Source: Olleya sp. Hel_I_94 (lineage in GTDB: Bacteria; Bacteroidota; Bacteroidia; Flavobacteriales; Flavobacteriaceae). Taken from it: a stretch of 64,000 bases of DNA. The stretch is from contig NZ_VISI01000002.1 of NCBI RefSeq assembly GCF_007827365.1, positions 377,001 through 441,000 of the forward strand. The letters run 5' to 3'. Of this stretch, positions 50,336 through 63,215 are shown piece after piece. Positions within the stretch are counted from its first letter, which is position 1, and the number at the start of each line of letters is the position of its first letter. The translations under genes and the position numbers were made by a program. The notes beneath the pieces were generated by a model. It had not been told where the DNA came from. It saw only the letters and a list, made by a program, of their open reading frames with translations, and did not search any database.

Positions 50336-53110
50336 TTATAAACCTTCATCAGGTTTACGACGTTGCTCGTATTTTAAATCTTGTAATATACTAGACTTGA
50401 TTCCTATAAAGAAATTCCAACGGTTATAAGTACCAAAAGGAACCCAAGTAAAATTCATTCGCCAGCTTAAAAGATCTCTTTGAAAACGTAATTGCGTTAA
50501 ACCAAATCCTTTATTTTTAAAATCATAACTTGATGATCCTCCAATAGACCAACGTGGTGCAATATCTAAATCTCCTGAGAACATTAACGAGTGTGATGAT
50601 ATTTCGTTTTGTCGTGCATTATTGGAGTAGTTTATGGCATAGGCTAATCTAAAATTCCAAGGAATTCCATAGTTGTAAAGCTCACTTGGTTCTTCCTCTT
50701 TATCTTCATCTTTATCATCATCTAAAAATCTAGAGTCCGCAAAATCTTGCGAGACACCAAATAAATCATCATCACGACCACCACTTAATAAGCGTTCGTT
50801 TCTTGAATTTTCATTTTCATCTCTAGAAGCACTTAATCCTTTACTATCAAAAGAATAACCCATGGTTAGGTTAGCACTTGTCATTCTAAATAAACTTCCG
50901 TTATTATCAATGTTGTACGTATTGATTCTAACATTATTATTATCTAAGGCGTAAGGATCTAAAGTGGCACCAAAGTTTATATTCATTTTATTATTAAACA
51001 GTTGTGTTCCTCCTGTAACTCTAATCGGACTCCAGTTTAAAGAGTCACCAGCAACGTTGTAAGAGGTTGAAAAGTTTAGGTTGTTAAGTAATATTATCTT
51101 TTTTGGTTCGACAACTGTAGAGTCCTTATCGCGCACCTTAGCTTCAAAGTTATTTGAAACTCCAATTCCAATAGAACTAGAGTAGGTGTTGTTAGGTGTT
51201 CCAAAAAGATTGTTTTCAAAACGTGTATATTCTGATTGTGTAGTACCATCAGCATCTATAACTTCTACTGTATCGTAATAATTATCAAATGCAGGATTAA
51301 TGTTATAACTTATAGATGGTCTGATTACGTGTCTTATTGCTTGTAGTTTTTTACCTTCTTTTTTCTTATCAAAGTTAAACATACCATAAATCGTTGTTCC
51401 TAAACTCGTAGAAAAATTATAAGTTCTAAAGCTATCAAAGCCATTAATATCTTCTGTTACAATTTCTTCTTCATCTGCATCATAATATTTGTTAACAGTG
51501 TTTAATGTCCAAACTTCGTTAAAGTTTGCACTCGCACTCATACTAAAATATTTAAATACTTTAAAGTTAGTTGATAGTGGAATAGTGTGTTGTGCGCCAA
51601 TTTTAGCGTCATCAAACATTTCACTTTTAAAGAAAAATTCGTCTGTAGTGGTAATTCTATTTTCTGCTCTTAAATTATATTGGACATTTATATTTTCTAA
51701 CATCCCTTTTTTTGTACCTTCTTTAGGTGCAAACGGGAAAATACGACCAATACTACCTTGAAAAGTTGGTAAGGTCATGTTAATAGCTCCTGTTTGAGTG
51801 TTTTGAGAATGCGATGCAGTCAAGTTTATATTAACCTGAGGCTCACCCAGAAATGTTTTGGAATAAGCAATAGAAGACGCTAGCGTATTATTTTGTGTAC
51901 TAGGTAAGTTGATTTGGTTTATAGATTGTTGGTAATAATTTTGACTACCTAAGTTAACGTTAGCCGAGAATCTAGCGTTTGGATTAGCTTTTGCATCTTG
52001 TTGATGTGACCAACGTAAGTTATAAATAGTTGTTTTTGCATAATCCGGAAAACCACGTTCACTGGTAATTAAGTTTTCATATCTAAAGGCTAGATTACCT
52101 CTAAATTTATAACGTCTTGCGTATTTGTTTTCTACTCTTAAACCATAACTACCATTGGTATAATAATCACCTAATAAGGCTAAATCAAAATAATCACTAA
52201 TAGCAAAATAATACCCACCATTTTGTAAAAAGTACCCACGATTACCATCCTCTCCAAAACTAGGAAAAATAACACCTGACGTTTGCTTTTTGGTTAAAGG
52301 AAAAAAGGCAAAAGGTAATCCTATAGGTGTTGGTACATCATAAATAAATAAGTTTGTTAGTCCAGTAATAACTTTACTACCTGGCACTAATTTACCTGTT
52401 CTAATTAAAAAGTAGTATTCTGGATCTTCTAAATCTTCAGCAGTTGTAAACTTTGCGTTTTTTAAATAATAAACCGAGTCATTTACTTTTTTGGTAGTTT
52501 CTGTTATTAATGTACCACCATTTTGTTCGGTAACCGAATTATATATTAACCCTTGTTTAGTAACCGTATTAAATACAATAGAATCTGGTTCTATTACATT
52601 TTCGCCTTGTTTAAATACAGGTCGCTGTTTGTAAAGTTTAGTAGAATCGTCAATAATACCTTTGGCATAAATTAAATCTTTATCAAAATCTAAAATAATA
52701 TGACCAGCAGTCACTTCCATATCTTCATAAAGCACTTCAGCTTCGTTATAAAGATGCATTTTGGATTCCTTTTTCTTATAAGACATGTAATCCGTAGCTT
52801 TATAGGAAACAGTACTAGATAGTAAAGGTTTGACTTTTATGGTGTCTACAGTAGTGCTATCACTAGCTTTTTCTGACAGTAAAGGAATATCTTTGTCAGT
52901 TTTTGTAGTGTCAATTATTGTATTGACTTGTAATTCGGTTGTTTTTACTGCAGGTAAATCAACGCCCTTTTTAGGGATTTCTCCTTGCGCAAAGCCTAGA
53001 GTGTTAATAAACACTGTAAAACTCAAAGTAAAAAGTATGTTAAGACTATGTGTACGCAACGCTTTTAAATGTATTTTTGTAAAAGTATGGCTTGGTATTT
53101 GAATTGACAA
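50336..53110 (-). CDS. lptD: LPS-assembly protein LptD (putative)
   Basis: 924 residues. A signal-like segment is at about 20-42 (SLNILFTLSFTVFINTLGFAQ). An OstA-like periplasmic domain is at about 100-240 (LYNEAEVLYEDMEVTAGHIILDFDKDLIYAKGI). The rest is a long beta-barrel: DVPTPIGLPFAFFPLTKKQTSGVIFPSFGEDGNRGYFLQNGGYYFAISDY is the LptD signature for the barrel entry, and the final strands include DLLSWRMNFTWVPFGTYNRWNFFIGIKSSIL. It inserts lipopolysaccharide into the outer leaflet. The start at the ATG at 53110 puts about twenty residues before the signal peptide core. Confidence 0.9.
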   Translation of the reverse strand: MSIQIPSHTFTKIHLKALRTHSLNILFTLSFTVFINTLGFAQGEIPKKGVDLPAVKTTELQVNTIIDTTKTDKDIPLLSEKASDSTTVDTIKVKPLLSSTVSYKATDYMSYKKKESKMHLYNEAEVLYEDMEVTAGHIILDFDKDLIYAKGIIDDSTKLYKQRPVFKQGENVIEPDSIVFNTVTKQGLIYNSVTEQNGGTLITETTKKVNDSVYYLKNAKFTTAEDLEDPEYYFLIRTGKLVPGSKVITGLTNLFIYDVPTPIGLPFAFFPLTKKQTSGVIFPSFGEDGNRGYFLQNGGYYFAISDYFDLALLGDYYTNGSYGLRVENKYARRYKFRGNLAFRYENLITSERGFPDYAKTTIYNLRWSHQQDAKANPNARFSANVNLGSQNYYQQSINQINLPSTQNNTLASSIAYSKTFLGEPQVNINLTASHSQNTQTGAINMTLPTFQGSIGRIFPFAPKEGTKKGMLENINVQYNLRAENRITTTDEFFFKSEMFDDAKIGAQHTIPLSTNFKVFKYFSMSASANFNEVWTLNTVNKYYDADEEEIVTEDINGFDSFRTYNFSTSLGTTIYGMFNFDKKKEGKKLQAIRHVIRPSISYNINPAFDNYYDTVEVIDADGTTQSEYTRFENNLFGTPNNTYSSSIGIGVSNNFEAKVRDKDSTVVEPKKIILLNNLNFSTSYNVAGDSLNWSPIRVTGGTQLFNNKMNINFGATLDPYALDNNNVRINTYNIDNNGSLFRMTSANLTMGYSFDSKGLSASRDENENSRNERLLSGGRDDDLFGVSQDFADSRFLDDDKDEDKEEEPSELYNYGIPWNFRLAYAINYSNNARQNEISSHSLMFSGDLDIAPRWSIGGSSSYDFKNKGFGLTQLRFQRDLLSWRMNFTWVPFGTYNRWNFFIGIKSSILQDLKYEQRRKPDEGL

Positions 53111-53197
53111 AACTACATATATTTTTTTGTGAATGTTTTAATATTCGTTAAAATTTATAAATCATACTAAACGCAAAATAAATTGGTTATAACATCT

Positions 53198-54310
53198 ATG
53201 CAAACGAACATTTTTAAACTTATAGTATCCTTTATAATAGTATTAACATTTAATAGCTTTCAAACTAGTCTTGCACAAGGTAGTAATGGTAAGTTTATTG
53301 TTGTTTTAGATGCTGGACATGGAGGTAAAGATCCAGGAAAACATGCTAAAACAGGTTTGAAAGAAAAAGATATTGCCTTAAATATTGTGTTAAGTGTTGG
53401 AAAAATCTTGGAAAAAAATCCTGACATAAAAGTGGTGTATACTAGAAAAACGGATGTTTTTGTAGATTTATTTAAAAGAGGAAAGATAGCTAATGATGCC
53501 AATGCAGACCTTTTTGTATCCATACACTGTAATGCTCATAATACGCAAGCTTCAGGATCCGAAACTTATGTTTTAGGAATACATCGTAATAAAACTAATT
53601 TTGAAGTTGCTAAAGCAGAAAACGAAGTAGTTTACTTAGAAGAAAATTATAAAGAAAACTATAATGGTTTTGATCCAAACTCACCAGAATCTTTTATTGG
53701 GTTATCTTTAATGCAAGAAGAATATTTAGATCAAAGTATAAAATTGGCCTCTTTAATTCAAAGTTCTTTCACTAATAAATTGAAAAGAAAAAACAGAGGA
53801 GTAAAGCAAGCTGGATTTATAGTTTTACATCAAACGGTTATGCCAAGTGTATTAGTAGAGACTGGTTTTATTACTAATACAGCGGAAGGTGCTTATTTAA
53901 ACTCGGCTAAAGGACAAAAAGATTTATCTAAATCTATATCTGATGCAATTTTGGATTATAAAACCGAAATTGATAAAAATGTAGGTAGTATTGTAATGGA
54001 AGCACCTATTGTGGACACTATTTCAACAGAAGAAAAAACAATTAAAAATACCGTTTTTAAAATTCAAATAGCAGCAAGCTCAAAATCTTTAGAGCCTAAA
54101 GCCTATAATTTTAAAGGATTGCAAGATATTTCTAGAGAAAAATCAGGAGGTCTTTATAAATATTATTACGGTTATACTTCGGACTATAATAAGATTCAAA
54201 AACTACAAATAGAAGCTAAAAATAAAGGTTATAAGGACGCTTATATTGTTGCTTTTAAAGATGGTAAACAAATCAAACTTTCAGAAGCATTAAAAACCGA
54301 GTCTAATTAG
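53198..54310 (+). CDS. N-acetylmuramoyl-L-alanine amidase (AmiC-like) with SPOR-like C-terminus
   Basis: 370 residues from the ATG at 53198; the in-frame TTG at 53183 is less likely. After a signal peptide (MQTNIFKLIVSFIIVLTFNSFQTSLAQ) comes an Amidase_3 domain: VVLDAGHGGKDPG with the first zinc His, DLFVSIHCNAHN with another, and SVLVETGFITN with the catalytic Glu. The C-terminal 100 residues (FKIQIAASSKSLEPKAYNFKGLQDISREKSGGLYKYYYGYTSDYNKIQKLQIEAKNKGYKDAYIVAF) look like a SPOR domain. It cleaves septal peptidoglycan. It is divergent from lptD and upstream of mlaD. Confidence 0.93.
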   Translation: MQTNIFKLIVSFIIVLTFNSFQTSLAQGSNGKFIVVLDAGHGGKDPGKHAKTGLKEKDIALNIVLSVGKILEKNPDIKVVYTRKTDVFVDLFKRGKIANDANADLFVSIHCNAHNTQASGSETYVLGIHRNKTNFEVAKAENEVVYLEENYKENYNGFDPNSPESFIGLSLMQEEYLDQSIKLASLIQSSFTNKLKRKNRGVKQAGFIVLHQTVMPSVLVETGFITNTAEGAYLNSAKGQKDLSKSISDAILDYKTEIDKNVGSIVMEAPIVDTISTEEKTIKNTVFKIQIAASSKSLEPKAYNFKGLQDISREKSGGLYKYYYGYTSDYNKIQKLQIEAKNKGYKDAYIVAFKDGKQIKLSEALKTESN

Positions 54311-54364: not shown

Positions 54365-55312
54365 TTGAAACTATCACTAGAAGTTAAAACAGCCATATTA
54401 GTTATTCTTGGAATAATATTTTTCATTTTTGGATTTAGTTATCTAAAAGGGAATAATATATTTGATTCTAACAATACATATTATACAGAGTTTGATTATA
54501 ACTCATTAGCAGTATCTGCTCCAGTAACTATAAAAGGGAATACGGTAGGTAAGGTTAAAGAAATCAAATATGATTTTGAAACCGGTAAAACAAGAGTCGC
54601 TTTCTCGGTAGACAAACAATTACAGTTTTCTAAAAACAGTAAAATTAGCATGTACCAAACAGGTTTAATGGGTGGTAATGCATTAGCAATAAAACCTGCA
54701 GAAGACAATCAAATGGCTAAGGATGGCGATTTAATCCAATCAGACGTAGAGGAAGGTTTAGTAACTAGCCTTACCAGTGATTTCTCTCAATTAAGCACTA
54801 ACCTTGACGGAACGTTAAAAACGGTAGATACATTAATGGGTAATCTTAATGGTTTAATTGCAGACAAATCTGAAAATGGATTACAAAATACGTTAGCCGA
54901 ATTAAATGCTACCTTAAAATCTTACAAAGGATTAGCGTATTCGATTAACTCTGTAGTTAAAAAAAATGACGAAAACATAACTACAATGGTGGATAACTTT
55001 AATCAAACTAGTGGCAATCTAAACCAGATGAGCCAAAAGTTAAACCAAGTAGATATAGCAAAAACGGTTGAAGATTTGCAAGCAACCTTAGCAAGCGTAA
55101 ATACCATGATGGCAAACGTTAAAAACGGAGAAGGATCACTGGGTAAACTACTTAAAGACGATGGCTTGTATACAAACCTAGAAGGTGCAGCATTACAAAT
55201 GGAGCAACTTTTAGAGGACATGAAACTAAACCCTAAACGTTACGTACACTTTTCATTATTTGGTAAAAAGCCAAAACAATACGATGCAGAAGGAAACGAT
55301 CTTAAAGATTAA
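54365..55312 (+). CDS. MlaD / MCE family lipid-transport protein
   Basis: 315 residues from a TTG start at 54365, which fits homologues beginning KLSxEVKTAILVI. One membrane anchor (residues 11-28) is followed by an MCE domain (about 35-120: YYTEFDYNSLAVSAPVTIKGNTVGKVKEIKYDFETGKTRVAFSV and SKISMYQTGLMGGNALAIKPAED). The C-terminal part has helical repeats with many Asn and Leu (NLNQMSQKLNQVDIAKTVEDLQATLASVNTMMANVKNGEGSLGKLLKDDGLYTNLEGAALQMEQLLEDMKLNPKRYVHFSLFGK). It anchors in the inner membrane to bridge phospholipid traffic. MlaE/F partners are not in the window. Confidence 0.93.
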   Translation: MKLSLEVKTAILVILGIIFFIFGFSYLKGNNIFDSNNTYYTEFDYNSLAVSAPVTIKGNTVGKVKEIKYDFETGKTRVAFSVDKQLQFSKNSKISMYQTGLMGGNALAIKPAEDNQMAKDGDLIQSDVEEGLVTSLTSDFSQLSTNLDGTLKTVDTLMGNLNGLIADKSENGLQNTLAELNATLKSYKGLAYSINSVVKKNDENITTMVDNFNQTSGNLNQMSQKLNQVDIAKTVEDLQATLASVNTMMANVKNGEGSLGKLLKDDGLYTNLEGAALQMEQLLEDMKLNPKRYVHFSLFGKKPKQYDAEGNDLKD

Positions 55313-55341: not shown

Positions 55342-56655
55342 ATGGAATACATACCTAACATAATTTTTGCAATAATACTTTTTGCAGGTATTGGCTACTT
55401 TGCAAACAATGTAAAAAAATTAGTCAGAAACATAAAACTAGGTAAAGACGTTGACGTATCAGACAATAAACCACAACGTTGGAAAAACATGGCATACATT
55501 GCTTTAGGACAAAGCAAAATGGTTAAACGTCCTATTTCTGGATTTTTACATGTTATTGTTTACGTAGGATTTGTAATAATAAACATCGAAGTTTTAGAAA
55601 TTATAATCGATGGTTTATTTGGTACACACAGGATTGGTCATAGCTTACTTCCAGAAGCACTTTACGGTTTTTTAATAGGAAGTTTTGAGATATTGGCAGT
55701 ACTAGTATTAGTAGCAGTTGTTATCTTTTGGACGCGACGTAACGTTATTAAACTAAAACGTTTCATGAAGTCAGAGATGAAGGGTTGGCCTAAATCTGAT
55801 GGTAATATTATATTGTATTTTGAAGTCGTATTAATGTGTCTATTTTTAGTGATGAATGCAACAGACACAGTCTTTCAAGACTATAATTCTGGTAACGTAA
55901 TCAGTCAATTTATAGCACCATTATTTAGTGGATTATCAGAAGCAGCATTACATACTTTAGAGCGTGCAGCATGGTGGATTCACATAGTAGGTATTTTAGT
56001 ATTTTTAAACTACCTATATTTTTCTAAGCATTTACATATCCTTTTGGCATTTCCAAATACATATTACGGTAAGCTTACACCAAAAGGACAATTTAAAAAC
56101 AATGCAACAGTAACTAAAGAGGTTAAGTTAATGATGGATCCAAACGTAGATCCATTTGCAGCACCTGCAGAAGGTACAGAAGCAGCAATGCCAGAAAAAT
56201 TTGGAGCAAGTGACGTACAAGATTTATCATGGGTAAACCTTTTAAATGCCTACACGTGTACAGAATGTGGACGTTGTACAAGTGAGTGTCCAGCAAACCT
56301 AACAGGTAAAAAGCTATCACCACGTAAAATAATGATGGATACCAGAGACCGTCTGGAAGAAGTAGGTAAAAATATAGATGCCAATAAAGGGACGTTTGTA
56401 GACGACGGTAAACAATTATTAGGCGACTATATTACAACCGAAGAGCTTTGGGCTTGTACAAGTTGTAACGCCTGTGTAGAGGCTTGTCCAGTTAGTATTG
56501 ATCCATTAAACATTATCATGGAAATGCGTCAATACTTAGTAATGGAGCAAAGTGCTGCACCAACCGAGTTAAATAACATGATGACCAATATAGAAAACAA
56601 TGGTGCACCTTGGCCTTACAACCAAATGGACCGTTTAAACTGGAAAGACGAGTAG
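55342..56655 (+). CDS. Membrane-bound 4Fe-4S oxidoreductase subunit (HdrC/DsrK-NarI-like)
   Basis: 437 residues. About five membrane helices in the first 230 residues (3-20, 68-90, 108-130, 157-175, 210-228) include His pairs that may bind heme. Two 4Fe-4S motifs follow: CTECGRCTSECP (Cys306, 309, 312, 316) and CTSCNACVEACP (Cys372, 375, 378, 382). This resembles the NarI-like plus ferredoxin layout of respiratory Fe-S proteins such as HdrDE, DsrK or GlpC partners. With the CCG gene at 57281 it forms a split heterodisulfide-reductase-like unit. Electron donor and acceptor are unknown. It starts 29 bp after mlaD. Confidence 0.9.
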   Translation: MEYIPNIIFAIILFAGIGYFANNVKKLVRNIKLGKDVDVSDNKPQRWKNMAYIALGQSKMVKRPISGFLHVIVYVGFVIINIEVLEIIIDGLFGTHRIGHSLLPEALYGFLIGSFEILAVLVLVAVVIFWTRRNVIKLKRFMKSEMKGWPKSDGNIILYFEVVLMCLFLVMNATDTVFQDYNSGNVISQFIAPLFSGLSEAALHTLERAAWWIHIVGILVFLNYLYFSKHLHILLAFPNTYYGKLTPKGQFKNNATVTKEVKLMMDPNVDPFAAPAEGTEAAMPEKFGASDVQDLSWVNLLNAYTCTECGRCTSECPANLTGKKLSPRKIMMDTRDRLEEVGKNIDANKGTFVDDGKQLLGDYITTEELWACTSCNACVEACPVSIDPLNIIMEMRQYLVMEQSAAPTELNNMMTNIENNGAPWPYNQMDRLNWKDE

Positions 56656-57280: not shown

Positions 57281-58072
57281 ATGAGCGAACAACTTATAGT
57301 GCCAACTATGGCAGAAATGATGAGCCAAGGTAAAACTCCAGATATTTTATTCTGGGTTGGATCAGCAGGAAGTTATGACGACAGAGCTAAAAAAATCACC
57401 AAAGCTTTTGTAAAAATATTAAACAAAGCAAAAGTAAATTTTGCAGTATTAGGTACAGAAGAGAGCTCAACAGGTGATATCGCAAAACGTGCAGGAAACG
57501 AGTTTTTGTTTCAAATGCAAGCCATGATGAATATTGAGCTGCTTAACTCATATAACGTAAAACGTATTGTAACCTGCGATCCGCATTCATTTAATTGTTT
57601 AAAAAACGAATATCCAGAATTAGGAGGTAATTACGAGGTGTTACACCACACACAATTTATCAAACAATTAATAGACAATAAAGTTATTCAAATAGAGAAT
57701 AGCAACTTTAATGGTAAACGTATCACGTTTCATGATCCATGTTATTTAGGTCGTGCAAATTCAGAATATTTAGCACCAAGAGACGTGTTATCTGTATTAA
57801 ACGCAAATTTAATCGAGATGAAACGAAACAAATCTACAGCATTATGTTGTGGTGCAGGAGGTGCGCAGATGTTTAAAGAGCCAGAAAAAGGAGATAAAGA
57901 TATTAATGAGTTAAGAACAGAAGATGCTTTAGAGACTAATCCAGATATAATCGCTACGGGTTGTCCTTACTGTATGACCATGATGTCTGATGGTGTAAAA
58001 GTTAAAGAAAAAGAAAACACAATTAAGGTTATGGATATTGCCGAGCTAATTGCTAACGCACAGGACCTATAA
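57281..58072 (+). CDS. CCG-domain Fe-S protein (HdrB/GlpC-like), first cluster site changed
   Basis: 263 residues with two CCG domains of the heterodisulfide-reductase B type. The second is intact: DPCYLGR (Cys154), LCCGAGG (Cys189-190) and GCPYC (Cys228, 231), the ligands of a non-cubane 4Fe-4S site. In the first the usual Cys are replaced: GTEESSTGD (Ser63 where Cys is expected) and TCDPHSFNC (Asp100 and Ser103 in place of the CPHC pair). So one site probably does not hold a cluster. It follows the membrane Fe-S gene after two small genes and a repeat. It overlaps the next gene by one base. Confidence 0.88.
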   Translation: MSEQLIVPTMAEMMSQGKTPDILFWVGSAGSYDDRAKKITKAFVKILNKAKVNFAVLGTEESSTGDIAKRAGNEFLFQMQAMMNIELLNSYNVKRIVTCDPHSFNCLKNEYPELGGNYEVLHHTQFIKQLIDNKVIQIENSNFNGKRITFHDPCYLGRANSEYLAPRDVLSVLNANLIEMKRNKSTALCCGAGGAQMFKEPEKGDKDINELRTEDALETNPDIIATGCPYCMTMMSDGVKVKEKENTIKVMDIAELIANAQDL

Positions 58073-60138: not shown

Positions 60139-60152
60139 GTAACATATGTTAC
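60139..60152. promoter_or_regulatory. Perfect 14-bp palindrome GTAACATATGTTAC, candidate operator
   Basis: GTAACATATGTTAC reads the same on both strands. It lies 55 bp upstream of the thioredoxin gene start, in a 191-bp AT-rich gap that has no other gene. Palindromes of this shape are typical for Crp/Fnr-type dimeric regulators. No clear TANNTTTG box stands beside it. I find no second copy in the window. Confidence 0.5.
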
Positions 60153-60206: not shown

Positions 60207-60647
60207 ATGTCTAAAATCAAAGTTATTTTATTTGTTACCCTATTATTCTCAATACAATCTTTTGCTCAAGATTGGCATACTGATATAGATAAGGCAAAAA
60301 GTTTGGCTAATAAAAATAATCAAAATATAATATTAGTTTTTCAAGGTTCTGATTGGTGTGCGCCTTGTATTAAATTGGATAAGGAAATTTGGAGTACTTT
60401 ACAGTTTCAAAATTTAGCTAAAAATCACTTTGTAATGCTCAAGGCAGATTTTCCTAAAAGAAAACAAAATAAATTACCTCTAGATTTACAAGCACATAAT
60501 AATAAGCTTGCAGAAAAATACAACCCAAACGGTTATTTCCCTTTCATACTTGTATTAAACGCTAAAGGCAATGTGTTAGGTAGTTTAGGTTATGAAAAAT
60601 CAACTCCTGAAGACTTTTACAAAAAACTAATAGCTTTTGAAAACTAA
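60207..60647 (+). CDS. Exported thioredoxin-like protein, first gene of the DUF4266/DUF3570 operon
   Basis: 146 residues. A signal peptide (MSKIKVILFVTLLFSIQSFAQ) precedes a thioredoxin-like fold with the redox motif QGSDWCAPCIKLDKEIW (CAPC near 51-54) and the cis-Pro region NGYFPFILVLNAKGNVLGSLGY. The type is the DUF255/Thioredoxin_7 group with Trp before the motif. It sits in the periplasm. Its end overlaps the TTG start of apbE by 11 bases, so translation is coupled. It opens a four-gene operon. Confidence 0.9.
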   Translation: MSKIKVILFVTLLFSIQSFAQDWHTDIDKAKSLANKNNQNIILVFQGSDWCAPCIKLDKEIWSTLQFQNLAKNHFVMLKADFPKRKQNKLPLDLQAHNNKLAEKYNPNGYFPFILVLNAKGNVLGSLGYEKSTPEDFYKKLIAFEN

Positions 60648-61626
60648 TATTTTAATAGTCGTATTATTATTTTGTGTTTTGGGTTTTAGCCAAGACACTT
60701 ATAATAAGAAACTTAAATTAATGGGAAGTAGTTTTGGTATTACAGTAGTAGCAGACTCCCAAAAGCAAGCAGACACTTTTATTAATATAGCAATTTCTGA
60801 AATTTCTAGAATAGAAAAATTAATATCGTCTTGGGACCCAAATTCACAAACGTCTTTAATTAATAAAAATTCAGGAATCAAAGCAGTAAAAGTTGATTTG
60901 GAGTTATTTAATTTAATAAATAGAGCTTTAAAAATCTCTAAATTAACCAATGGTGCTTTTGACATTAGTTACGCATCTATGGACCAAATATGGAAGTTTG
61001 ATGGTACAATGACTGAAATGCCATCCAAAGAAGCTATCAAAAAATCAGTGGATAAGGTTGGTTATCAAAATATAATATTAGATAAAGATCAACAAACAGT
61101 TTTTTTAAAATTAGAAGGCATGAAAATTGGTTTTGGAGCTATAGGTAAAGGTTATGCTGCAGACAAAGCAAAAGCATTGCTAATATCAAAAGGTGTAATC
61201 TCTGGAATTATTAATGCTTCTGGTGATTTAAATACTTGGGGAAAACAACCTAATGGAGATGATTGGAAAGTTGCCATAATAAATCCACTAAATAAAGAAA
61301 AAATTTTCTCGTGGTTACCAGTTAATAATAGCGCAGTTGTCACTTCTGGTAATTATGAAAAATATGTAAAATTTAATAACATCTTATACACGCACATTAT
61401 AGATCCAAGAACAGGGTATCCTGCAACAGGCATTTTAAGTGTTACTATTTTTACTAAAACAGCAGAATTGGCAGATGCATTAGCGACTTCAATATTTGTT
61501 ATGGGAAAAGACACAGGTTTAGATTTTGTAAATCAATTAAAAGGAGTAGAGTGCATTATTATTGATGAAAACAATACCATTATTACCTCTAAAAACATAG
61601 AATTAAATAACTTGAAACATGATTAA
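60637..61626 (+). CDS. apbE: FAD:protein FMN transferase, ApbE family
   Basis: 329 residues from a TTG start at 60637. The signal peptide (MKTNILIVVLLFCVLGFSQ) has no lipobox. ApbE motifs are MGSSFGITVV (near 29-38), TNGAFDISYASMDQIWKF, KIGFGAIGKGYAADKAKALLISKGVISGIINASGDLNTWG, and AVVTSGNYEKY with HIIDPRTGYPATG near the end. These bind FAD and Mg. It attaches FMN to Ser/Thr of exported proteins. It overlaps the thioredoxin gene by 11 bases and the DUF4266 gene by eight. Confidence 0.94.
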   Translation: MKTNILIVVLLFCVLGFSQDTYNKKLKLMGSSFGITVVADSQKQADTFINIAISEISRIEKLISSWDPNSQTSLINKNSGIKAVKVDLELFNLINRALKISKLTNGAFDISYASMDQIWKFDGTMTEMPSKEAIKKSVDKVGYQNIILDKDQQTVFLKLEGMKIGFGAIGKGYAADKAKALLISKGVISGIINASGDLNTWGKQPNGDDWKVAIINPLNKEKIFSWLPVNNSAVVTSGNYEKYVKFNNILYTHIIDPRTGYPATGILSVTIFTKTAELADALATSIFVMGKDTGLDFVNQLKGVECIIIDENNTIITSKNIELNNLKHD

Positions 61627-61831
61627 AAAAGCAATTATTTTAGTTACTCTTATTTTTTCGTTTAGCTCGTGTGTAGTAGTAAAAGAATATGAGAAAGTAA
61701 ATTTAAGTGATCCAGATATGTCATTAACACAAAAAAAAATTGATCGTTTTGAAACAGCCTTTCAAGTCTATCGTGAAGGTGCTTCAGGTGCTAATGGAGG
61801 TAAGTCAGGTGGTGGATGTGGTTGTAATTAA
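61619..61831 (+). CDS. DUF4266 family small lipoprotein with GGGCGCN tail
   Basis: 70 residues. The signal peptide ends at SFSSC (Cys18, lipid anchor). The mature part has VKEYEKVNLSDPDMSLTQKKIDRFETAFQVYREGASGANGGKSGGGCGCN. The start of it (V-K-x-Y/W-E-x-x-x-L-x-x-P-x-M) and the C-terminal Gly-rich GGGCGCN are, from memory, the hallmarks of DUF4266. Two Cys at 67 and 69 lie at the very end. It overlaps apbE by eight bases and precedes the DUF3570 gene by 10 bp. The role is not known. Confidence 0.88.
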   Translation: MIKKAIILVTLIFSFSSCVVVKEYEKVNLSDPDMSLTQKKIDRFETAFQVYREGASGANGGKSGGGCGCN

Positions 61832-61841
61832 TAAGCAAAAA

Positions 61842-63215
61842 ATGAAAAATAATATAATAATTATAATGTTTTTGTGCTTTGGAAGTGCATGGTCTCAACA
61901 AGATTCTACATTAGTTTACAAAAAACGTGTTTTAGAAACAACTGAGGTTGATTTTTTATCAAGTTATTACAGTCAAGACGGTAATAATGCCTCAGTTACA
62001 GGAGGTATAGGTACTGAAGAATTGACAGATGCAACAGCAACCATAGTTGTTAGTATGCCTCTAAATGAAGATGACGTTTTAACTATAGATGCAGGAATTT
62101 CAGCATATACTTCAGCATCGTCAAGTAATACAGATCCCTTTGACGATTCAGATGGTGCAACACCTTGGTCAACTTCGTCAGGTGCTTCAGCTAGTGATGT
62201 TTGGGCAAATATTAATGCAGATTACTCTCATAGTTCTGACGATAGAAATACTATTTGGAATGCCGATCTATCTTTGGCTTCTGAGTATGATTACTTTTCA
62301 TTAGGTTTTGGTGGTGGATTGACTAAACTTTTTAATGAAAAAAATACAACAATAGGTGTAAGTGCTAAAGTGTATTTAGATACATGGAATCCTGTTTACC
62401 CAATAGAGTTAAGATCTTTTGAAGATAATAATAGAAATCTAACACAGGGTTTATTTAGTAATTTAAATATAATTGATCAAAACGGAAACACATCATTAGC
62501 GTATAATCCAGTTAATTATAAATCCATTCAGGATAAGGGTAGAAACACCTATTCTTTATCATTAAGTTTTTCTCAAATCCTTAGTAAAAACGCACAATTT
62601 TCTGTCTTTTTGGATCTTGTTAATCAACAAGGCTGGTTAGCAAATCCACTACAACGTGTATATTTTTCAGATGTAGACAATTATTACGTAGGTAATGCAG
62701 CTAGTATTCCTAATTACACATCATCAGGTAATACTGATGTATTTCAATTAGCAGATGATATAGAGCGGTTACCAGACAGTAGAATAAAAATTCCTGTAGG
62801 ATTTCGCTTTAATTATTATTTAAATGAAGTTTTTACCGTTAGAACTTATTATAGATATTATTTTGATGATTGGGGAATTAAATCAAATACAGCTAGTATA
62901 GAAGTCCCAATAAAGATTTCGCAAAAATTTACATTATATCCATCGTTTAGATATTATGATCAAACCGAAGCAGACTACTTTGCACCTTATGAGCAAAACC
63001 TATCTACAGAACAGTTTTACACATCAGATTATGATTTATCTAAATTTAATGCCAACCAGTATGGTTTTGGTATAAGTTATACAGATATTTTTAGTTCTGC
63101 ACATATCTGGGAATTCGGATTAAAAAGTATAGATTTTAAGTACAATAATTATCAACGTAATACAGGACTAAGTGCTAATTATTTTGGATTAGGTTTTAAA
63201 TTTGTTATGGATTAA
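61842..63215 (+). CDS. DUF3570 family outer-membrane beta-barrel protein
   Basis: 457 residues from the ATG at 61842, just after the DUF4266 gene; a longer in-frame stretch upstream overlaps that gene and has no signal peptide. A signal peptide (MKNNIIIIMFLCFGSAWSQ) is followed by strand-rich sequence: YDYFSLGFGGGLTKLF, RIKIPVGFRFNYYLNEVFTVRTYYRYYFDDWG, and a closing aromatic strand IWEFGLKSIDFKYNNYQRNTGLSANYFGLGFKFVMD. This is a DUF3570 barrel. A polar loop at 101-120 has an SGAS sequence (113-116). It is the last gene of the operon. Confidence 0.88.
   Translation: MKNNIIIIMFLCFGSAWSQQDSTLVYKKRVLETTEVDFLSSYYSQDGNNASVTGGIGTEELTDATATIVVSMPLNEDDVLTIDAGISAYTSASSSNTDPFDDSDGATPWSTSSGASASDVWANINADYSHSSDDRNTIWNADLSLASEYDYFSLGFGGGLTKLFNEKNTTIGVSAKVYLDTWNPVYPIELRSFEDNNRNLTQGLFSNLNIIDQNGNTSLAYNPVNYKSIQDKGRNTYSLSLSFSQILSKNAQFSVFLDLVNQQGWLANPLQRVYFSDVDNYYVGNAASIPNYTSSGNTDVFQLADDIERLPDSRIKIPVGFRFNYYLNEVFTVRTYYRYYFDDWGIKSNTASIEVPIKISQKFTLYPSFRYYDQTEADYFAPYEQNLSTEQFYTSDYDLSKFNANQYGFGISYTDIFSSAHIWEFGLKSIDFKYNNYQRNTGLSANYFGLGFKFVMD

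Follow-up and report, generated by a model that had tools for sequence, protein, structure and literature searches.

The stretch of DNA considered here (hereafter the window; 64,000 nucleotides of Olleya sp. Hel_I_94, contig NZ_VISI01000002.1, positions 377,001–441,000) contains at 60207–63215 four plus-strand genes encoding, in order, a thioredoxin-like protein, the flavin transferase ApbE, a DUF4266 protein and a DUF3570 protein. The operon almost certainly represents the little-studied ApbE-DUF3570-thioredoxin-DUF4266 flavinylation system described by Meheust et al. (2021; eLife, PMC8238504) and is not in itself new. The main new result is a pocket of conserved residues predicted, on a structural model, in the outer lumen of the DUF3570 beta-barrel at the level of the candidate flavin sites; this predicted flavin position and a seemingly relaxed acceptor motif are the parts worth testing.

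The accessible text of PMC8238504, to which all statements on that paper refer, already describes the gene set ApbE, DUF3570, PF13899 thioredoxin and DUF4266 as a hybrid thioredoxin/flavinylation system, with 285 clusters that include the membrane reductase gene dsbD and 316 four-gene clusters that do not. A coexpressed ApbE was reported to flavinylate DUF3570 of Chlorobium luteolum (ABB24424.1/ABB24423.1, the DUF3570/ApbE pair), and the modification ceased only when both predicted serines were replaced. The protein had been made without its signal peptide, most of it was recovered in the pellet, and purification was under denaturing conditions; evidently ApbE can modify it with no outer membrane present. 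The sequence-only reading, an earlier account of the window made without database searches, had called the system undescribed and without established function, claims that fall because this paper describes the set and tests DUF3570 as an acceptor of flavin mononucleotide (FMN). The same work bears out, for one related DUF3570, its expectation that ApbE implies covalent FMN, and supplies a tested acceptor where the partner protein had been left open. The main text of PMC8238504 makes no mention of Rieske proteins, copper, CusA/CzcA, efflux, heavy metals, histidine kinases, NusG or beta-barrels (its supplementary tables may list such genes), and its sole reference to the outer membrane concerns TonB receptors. 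Among the open-licence texts accessible this was the only paper to mention DUF4266 or DUF3570; no other treated DUF3570 as a flavoprotein of the outer membrane or cell surface, and none locates the flavins of the system or names what is reduced; the accessible parts of PMC11334425 and the preprint PMC10979944 do not treat DUF3570.

Predicted Barrel and Conserved Lumen of DUF3570

The DUF3570 protein (PF12094; 457 aa; 61842–63215, plus strand; Pfam 1.2e-41) is predicted to be a 16-stranded outer-membrane barrel. An AlphaFold2 model built on a 77-sequence alignment has a predicted local distance difference test score (pLDDT) of 87.9, a predicted template modelling score (pTM) of 0.83 and sixteen long strands counted from DSSP, that is, an even strand number, with both termini on the short-turn side. 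A relative modelled with 38 sequences (pLDDT 78.2, pTM 0.77) likewise has sixteen strands, but the two models are not independent, since the alignment of the relative draws on the same family. No solved relative of DUF3570 was found by sequence at E 0.1, and the 50 matches shown in a VIA-align fold comparison are all outer-membrane barrels (BamA 21.3, 4y25 21.0, PelB 20.3, BcsC 18.5), whose alignments all run in one direction and span DUF3570 residues 29–32 to 454–457. The prediction thus supports the outer-membrane location proposed for this protein by the sequence-only reading.

As a general rule for such barrels, the side opposite the termini and short turns is extracellular. In the model the termini share their side with turns 74–77, 132–136, 165–168, 249–250, 327–330, 355–367 and 415–424, and the opposite side bears loops 49–57, 92–118, 149–150, 183–232, 265–312, 343–346, 375–401 and 440–443. 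From the rule and the fold matches, the latter side is predicted to face the cell exterior. Two candidate flavin acceptors, S93 directly after strand 3 and S116 directly before strand 4, flank loop 92–118, and the flavins would thus probably lie on the cell-surface side of the modelled barrel.

The distribution of conservation along the model points to the same region. With the lumen face defined as the more polar face of each strand, the 106 lumen-facing positions are more conserved than the 103 lipid-facing ones (0.605 vs 0.441, p 6e-10), and lumen conservation increases toward the predicted cell exterior (rho 0.58, p 7e-11); on the lipid face it drops slightly (rho −0.28). The lumen trend recurs with rho 0.58 among 60 Bacteroidia and, for sequences mapped onto the model, with 0.49 among 48 relatives of a Vibrio protein, those with names all coming from Gammaproteobacteria; it is weak, at 0.23, among 13 presumed Chlorobia. 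Fourteen of the 15 strand residues with conservation of at least 0.9 face the lumen, and 11 of these 14 belong to its outer third (A146, E148, Y151, S153, D180, G264, R314, Y340, D342, Q374, and Y437), R338, T350 and R370 lying deeper. This outer-third conservation would place conserved chemistry level with the candidate flavin attachment sites.

Drift of the Acceptor Motif

The motif recognized by ApbE has been written as [S/T]GA[S/T]-like (introduction of PMC8238504) and, in the accessible text of PMC12052999, as D-x-x-[S/T]-G-A-[S/T]; for one substrate in the latter, replacement of the Asp had a minor effect and a change of Gly to Ala left ~50% flavinylation. The two candidate sites of the window protein differ in how they relate to this motif. 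Site 2 (S113-G114-A115-S116; 62178–62189, plus strand) reads SGAS and is literally [S/T]GA[S/T], with Ser in place of the Asp at −6. Site 1 (T90-S91-A92-S93; 62109–62120, plus strand) is non-canonical: TSAS is aligned with the motif and does not match it literally, and S87 replaces the Asp.

Across the family, site 1 keeps its place while its sequence drifts. The window TSAS aligns with D-x-x-[ST]-G-A-[ST] of 48/48 relatives of the Vibrio protein, and 55 of the 60 proteins listed as such relatives have the full motif within their first 170 residues; the presumed Chlorobia have [ST]GAS at this site in 13/13 cases (alignment A2). Among Bacteroidia the site is TSAS, SSAS or ASAS in 120/120 close homologues, in 81/81 proteins from 80 loci and in 28/28 sampled proteins, some of them retaining the Asp at −6 (DHYTSAS) that is Ser in the window. 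A92 is invariant (77/77) and S93 is kept in at least 90% of sequences. Site 2 is [ST]GAS in 120/120 close homologues, but 17 of the 28 sampled Bacteroidia either read SSAS or TSAS there or have lost the site. No [S/T]GA[S/T] occurs anywhere in 20 of 46 sampled DUF3570 proteins, and ApbE is present in all 20 of these loci. Two findings run counter to this picture: 8 of 120 close homologues do carry a full D-x-x-[ST]-G-A-[ST] somewhere within their first 170 residues, and a distant relative of the type DMVSSAS (P0290) indicates that Ser in the Gly position also occurs beyond Bacteroidia. The most economical interpretation of the motif-less proteins is that the ApbE enzymes concerned may accept Ser for Gly; if the motif is so relaxed, searches with strict [S/T]GA[S/T] would miss flavinylated proteins, 20/46 in this small, one-family sample.

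DUF4266 was considered as a second ApbE substrate on account of a motif-like REGASGAN and was rejected: the acceptor place is mostly Asn, with Thr (after Gly-Gly) in three proteins and Ala in two, and [S/T]GA[S/T] is found in 0/35 DUF4266 proteins.

Operon Layout and the Thiol Partners

The four genes are joined by an 11-base overlap, an 8-base overlap and a 10-base gap, positions that the sequence-only reading had given exactly to the base; the DUF3570 start is put at 61842, where a signal peptide-like sequence begins, the mechanical open reading frame starting at 61740. The first gene (60207–60647, plus strand) encodes an exported thioredoxin-like protein of 146 aa with a WCAPC active site (Pfam Thioredoxin_7, 6.7e-14; codons of C51-A-P-C54 at 60357–60368, plus strand), whose closest NCBIfam model is DsbH (84.9 bits, under the cut-off of 190) and whose closest solved chain is 2ju5 (1.4e-13). 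The second (60637–61626, plus strand; TTG start) encodes an exported ApbE, flavin adenine dinucleotide (FAD):protein FMN transferase, of 329 aa (Pfam ApbE, 8.6e-83), with a signal peptide recognized by eye; it aligns with the solved chains 1vrm and 7esa (FMN transferase), and TSGNY, HIIDP and ADALAT fall within the aligned blocks.

The third gene (61619–61831, plus strand; Pfam 1e-19) encodes DUF4266, a predicted lipoprotein of 70 aa with lipobox Cys18 and the C-terminus GGGCGCN, in which the codons of C67-G68-C69 occupy 61817–61825 (plus strand). The residues C18, M34, E53, G65, G66, C67, G68, and C69 are invariant in 35/35 aligned DUF4266 proteins. The Vibrio DUF4266 protein is 154 aa long and ends in the domain; it appears to start with an ordinary signal peptide that has no lipobox, so the lipid anchor is apparently not universal. 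CXC peptides are able to cycle as strained disulfides. Mature DUF3570 of the window is cysteine-free, its single Cys being residue 12 in the signal peptide, and thiol electrons would therefore reach the barrel only through a partner; that the thioredoxin acts on the two-Cys lipoprotein, as the sequence-only reading proposed, is plausible.

A perfect palindrome, GTAACATATGTTAC, lies at 60139–60152 (no strand assigned), 67 bases 5' of the thioredoxin start, and is a candidate operator. It recurs at a similar distance in the two genus mates that carry the cassette (L080, L081) and in Leeuwenhoekiella (L191) as GTAACTCGAGTTAC; TAACNNNNGTTA occurs in just 5 of 99 upstream regions, the window counted, and the copy of L197 is at a different distance. 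The motif has 17 places in the genome vs 8 for a reversed control. GTAACNNNNGTTAC was discarded as a regulon marker: a second identical copy (C1:525178) falls within a lipoprotein-like gene, and it is therefore only the conservation among near relatives that supports the palindrome. In 3/120 loci a gene that looks Crp/Fnr-like by eye immediately precedes the cassette; it was likewise set aside, the cases being too few to use.

The flanking genes, named by eye, are a 161-aa gene without Pfam match and a phosphoserine-phosphatase-like gene upstream and a beta-glucosidase-like gene downstream; they vary between relatives while the four cassette genes remain linked. Farther upstream are genes that, by reading, encode a membrane protein with ferredoxin-type cysteines (55342–56655) and a CCG-type Fe-S oxidoreductase subunit, like pieces of HdrD/DsrMK (57281–58072); such genes also precede the cassette in 5 and 7 of the 120 loci, a linkage that is probably synteny. 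LptD-like (50336–53110, minus strand), N-acetylmuramoyl-alanine amidase-like (53183–54310) and MlaD-like (54365–55312) genes, also identified by reading, are ordinary envelope genes.

Distribution of the Cassette

The four families occur together far beyond chance, which agrees with the proposal of the sequence-only reading that they form one machine. In a survey of 247 genomes drawn evenly from the phylum, DUF4266 was found in 69 genomes and DUF3570 in 71, and all 69 with DUF4266 also have DUF3570; ApbE is present in 166 genomes and somewhere in 68 of the 69 (G181 being the one without). Forty DUF4266-centered loci were taken from two genus mates, 26 sites of the same class, four sites in lineages f15, f19 and f34, and eight of 39 genomes of lineage f17 (presumed from its genes and its DsbD link to be Chlorobia). 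All 40 contain DUF3570, 37 have ApbE, 36 have a thioredoxin-like gene and six, every one of them from f17, have DsbD. The eight presumed Chlorobia loci have DUF4266 and DUF3570 in all eight, ApbE in six and an adjoining DsbD in six. A further set, the best 80 of 575 named genome loci by DUF3570 profile and nearly all from Flavobacteriaceae, has DUF4266 and ApbE in 80, thioredoxin in 78 and DsbD in two. The closest named DUF3570 homologue is that of Olleya sp. Bg11-27 (85%), and a scan of viral contigs for DUF3570 gave no relative.

Outside Bacteroidota one pseudomonadotan locus was read, a Vibrio replicon in which thioredoxin-like, DUF4266, DUF3570, ApbE, and DsbD genes are consecutive and each Pfam-confirmed. 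The linkage that the sequence-only reading gave for distant bacteria thus holds for Gammaproteobacteria, Shewanella itself not being among the names listed for the Vibrio-type relatives, and the co-occurrence it had set as its test is borne out within Bacteroidota and at that single locus beyond. The thioredoxin belongs to Thioredoxin_7 in Flavobacteriaceae vs Redoxin/AhpC-TSA in f17 (one protein tested), a difference that would be expected if any suitable reductant can fill the slot. In the window's genome the sole DsbD_TM match (G000:C2:742408-743046) is ~300 kb from the cassette, in an intact, unlinked DsbD of 801 aa with a thioredoxin-like end; as the cluster contains no DsbD gene, it is filed as the DsbD-unlinked form.

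Several individual loci depart from the common layout. In the presumed Chlorobia, L115 (4990–14453), L116 and L117 have two to four tandem DUF3570 genes, some with repeated thioredoxin-DUF4266 genes, an expansion of barrel copy number. A NusG domain II protein stands between DUF3570 and ApbE in L108 (6059–6760, tested), and genes in L110 (9324–9980) and L111 (6113–6784) look alike. At L109 (5563–8061) a gene with a hydrazine synthase alpha middle domain is directly 5' of DUF4266 and DUF3570, with no ApbE within the fetched stretch. A plasmid cassette of Hymenobacter volaticus (L201, 6470–7833) has ApbE in two frames and an off-family DUF4266 tail, by decay or sequencing error. The contigs L138 and L141 from metagenome-assembled genomes labeled Chlorobiota and KSB1 carry a flavobacterial-type DUF3570, 58% identical to that of the window, either by transfer or by misbinning.

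Neighbor Genes in Relatives

Genes around the cassette were clustered over the 120 loci (40 + 80), one representative of each cluster being tested for naming. A response-regulator cluster is near 29 loci (an upper figure, as the cluster includes a few short or opposite-strand members) and a sensor-kinase cluster near 27, many of them directly downstream in Flavobacterium; the representatives match the CopR/CzcR and CopS/CzcS models best, each short of the cut-off (215 bits vs 279 and 233 bits vs 293). CusA/CzcA permeases are near 23 loci, adaptor proteins near 11, VIT1 near nine, and a small exported Rieske protein also near nine, directly upstream in eight. A small Rieske gene adjoins as well a second, non-cassette ApbE at G182:C6:646432-648085.

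A whole-genome linkage test on 28 genomes with 29 cassettes placed CusA/CzcA over cut-off within 10 kb of eight cassettes vs 0.31 expected, among the matches listed, an expectation that is perhaps slightly low, and Rieske within 3 kb of seven vs 0.064 expected. The corresponding P values (1.6e-9 and 8.6e-13) treat cassettes as independent, and shared ancestry inflates the enrichment, which comes from about five lineages per case. Neither Rieske nor VIT1 gives a match in the window's genome, and the nearest of its 13 CusA/CzcA-type matches is ~246 kb from the cassette; since the window cassette is without these neighbors, they are optional partners. The metal-reduction route raised by the sequence-only reading may accordingly be kept as a hypothesis that the VIT1, CusA/CzcA and heavy-metal-type two-component neighbors of relatives suggest and that the window's own surroundings do not echo.

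Proposed Electron Route and Alternatives

In the mechanism proposed here, periplasmic ApbE would attach FMN to S93 and S116 of DUF3570 before insertion of the barrel, and the folded barrel would keep the flavins at its cell-surface mouth, in the pocket that conserved charged and aromatic residues form in the outer lumen. The distant DsbD would reduce the thioredoxin, the thioredoxin the CGC tail of DUF4266, and the tail would feed the FMN; from the reduced flavins the electrons would then pass to a surface acceptor, perhaps a transition metal. The electron steps, their direction, the acceptor and the modification of the window's own S93 and S116 are what we infer. A DsbD-unlinked flavinylation system working as such an outward relay is, taken as a whole, the best explanation, held at slightly better than even confidence. 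The full chain from DsbD through thioredoxin, DUF4266 and FMN to a surface acceptor is put forward tentatively, as somewhat less than an even prospect, and a more specific version is doubtful: a haem-free conduit with two FMNs attached via a relaxed [S/T/A]-[G/S]-A-S, held in the surface-mouth pocket of the 16-stranded barrel and fed by the CGC tail entering the lumen.

A number of observations weigh against the outward relay. Depth was read from strand positions only, with inside and outside assigned from the general rule and the fold matches, and the modeled topology is irregular, the presumed periplasmic turn 355–367 not being short and the opposite-side segments 149–150, 343–346 and 440–443 not being long. 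Loop 92–118 is of low confidence (block means 69, 66, and 52, with 112–117 below 50). An artificial read-through fold tethering DUF4266 to DUF3570 (38 loci) gives helix 39–51 a pLDDT of ~77 and the CGC tail one below 50, and hence does not show docking or entry into the lumen. Two residues of the published motif, Asp and Gly, are missing from site 1 of the window protein. DsbD is within reach in only the two close-relative and six sampled loci already mentioned, and the cassette, detected by DUF4266, is present in 3 of 10 genomes of the genus, the window's own counted, and is therefore accessory. A periplasmic electron donor fits awkwardly with a flavin site at the surface.

Two alternatives turn on metals. 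One is a role in copper or other metal stress, for which the DsbD-like Scs system known from copper tolerance sets a precedent; the module would reduce or reroute the metal, or repair metal-damaged thiols, beside CusA/CzcA efflux and a heavy-metal-type two-component system. The CusA/CzcA linkage (8 of 29 cassettes, in several gene arrangements) and the heavy-metal-type regulators and kinases, with representatives below cut-off, are consistent with this role, which we nevertheless regard as rather unlikely for the window cassette, given that it has no such neighbor and that the Flavobacterium cases share ancestry, so that their counts are not independent. In one study, the gene that copper induced most strongly in a sulfate reducer encoded an ApbE; its accessible text shows no link to the cassette (PMC8836040). 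Iron assimilation, with ferric iron reduced at or near the outer membrane for uptake, was suggested in PMC8238504 from the VIT1 neighbors of 25 DUF3570 clusters and draws on VIT1 near nine of the 120 loci here; it is distinctly unlikely, as VIT1 is not a partner in the window's genome, where no VIT1 match was found and no search was made for other iron transporters or a Fur site.

The remaining alternatives concern the direction of flow and the function of the barrel or of ApbE. The pocket residues E148, Y151, D180, R314, R338, Y340, D342, and Q374 are conserved beyond the apparent need of a plain wire, as would suit a surface enzyme in which the barrel reduces one specific outside molecule with FMN as active-site cofactor rather than acting as a conduit; with no solved sequence relative at E 0.1, this is unlikely. 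Inward flow, with surface flavins taking electrons from an external donor and passing them to thiols and the cell, for example in green sulfur bacteria, would agree with the well-equipped presumed Chlorobia loci, often with several barrels, and with the ability of flavin and thiol couples to work in both directions. It appears improbable: DsbD exports reducing power in every characterized case we know of, and no linked donor-oxidizing enzyme was noticed, without a search aimed at one. It is very unlikely as well that ApbE of Bacteroidia no longer modifies DUF3570, its motif being degenerate, and serves another protein. The 20 of 46 proteins without [S/T]GA[S/T] and the halved flavinylation of another substrate upon Gly to Ala replacement (PMC12052999) speak for such a shift; against it stand the nearly invariant Ala-Ser of site 1, the retention of ApbE in all 20 motif-less loci, the canonical site 2 of 120/120 close homologues and the absence of the motif from DUF4266 (35/35).

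Comparison with Known Systems

The export barrels that the model resembles in fold, PgaA-like 4y25, PelB, and BcsC, and also BamA, share ~10–14% identity with DUF3570 over the alignment and differ from it in the covalent flavin expected on the latter. They possess periplasmic TPR or POTRA parts and DUF3570 has no such part.

The closest likeness is to the DsbD systems of Meheust et al. (2021), which comprise the same four families with a CXC tail on DUF4266 and, in 316 clusters, lack a linked DsbD as here; the window cassette departs from the rest in its unlinked DsbD, its TSAS at site 1 and a genome without a VIT1 match. The C. luteolum DUF3570/ApbE pair, the only tested member found in the accessible text of that work, belongs to the same family and likewise has two acceptor serines. 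Judged on the sampled presumed Chlorobia, that lineage differs from the window cassette in having [ST]GAS at site 1 (13/13), a Redoxin-type thioredoxin and, often, a linked DsbD.

With the MtrCAB porin-cytochrome conduits the proposed system would share the use of a barrel for electron passage across the outer membrane. In contrast to these, no CXXCH occurs in the four window proteins, which are those the search covered, and the redox groups would be FMN and thiols. If the flavins do stand at the surface mouth, flavobacteria, green sulfur bacteria and vibrios with the cassette would gain a haem-free electron route to the cell surface.

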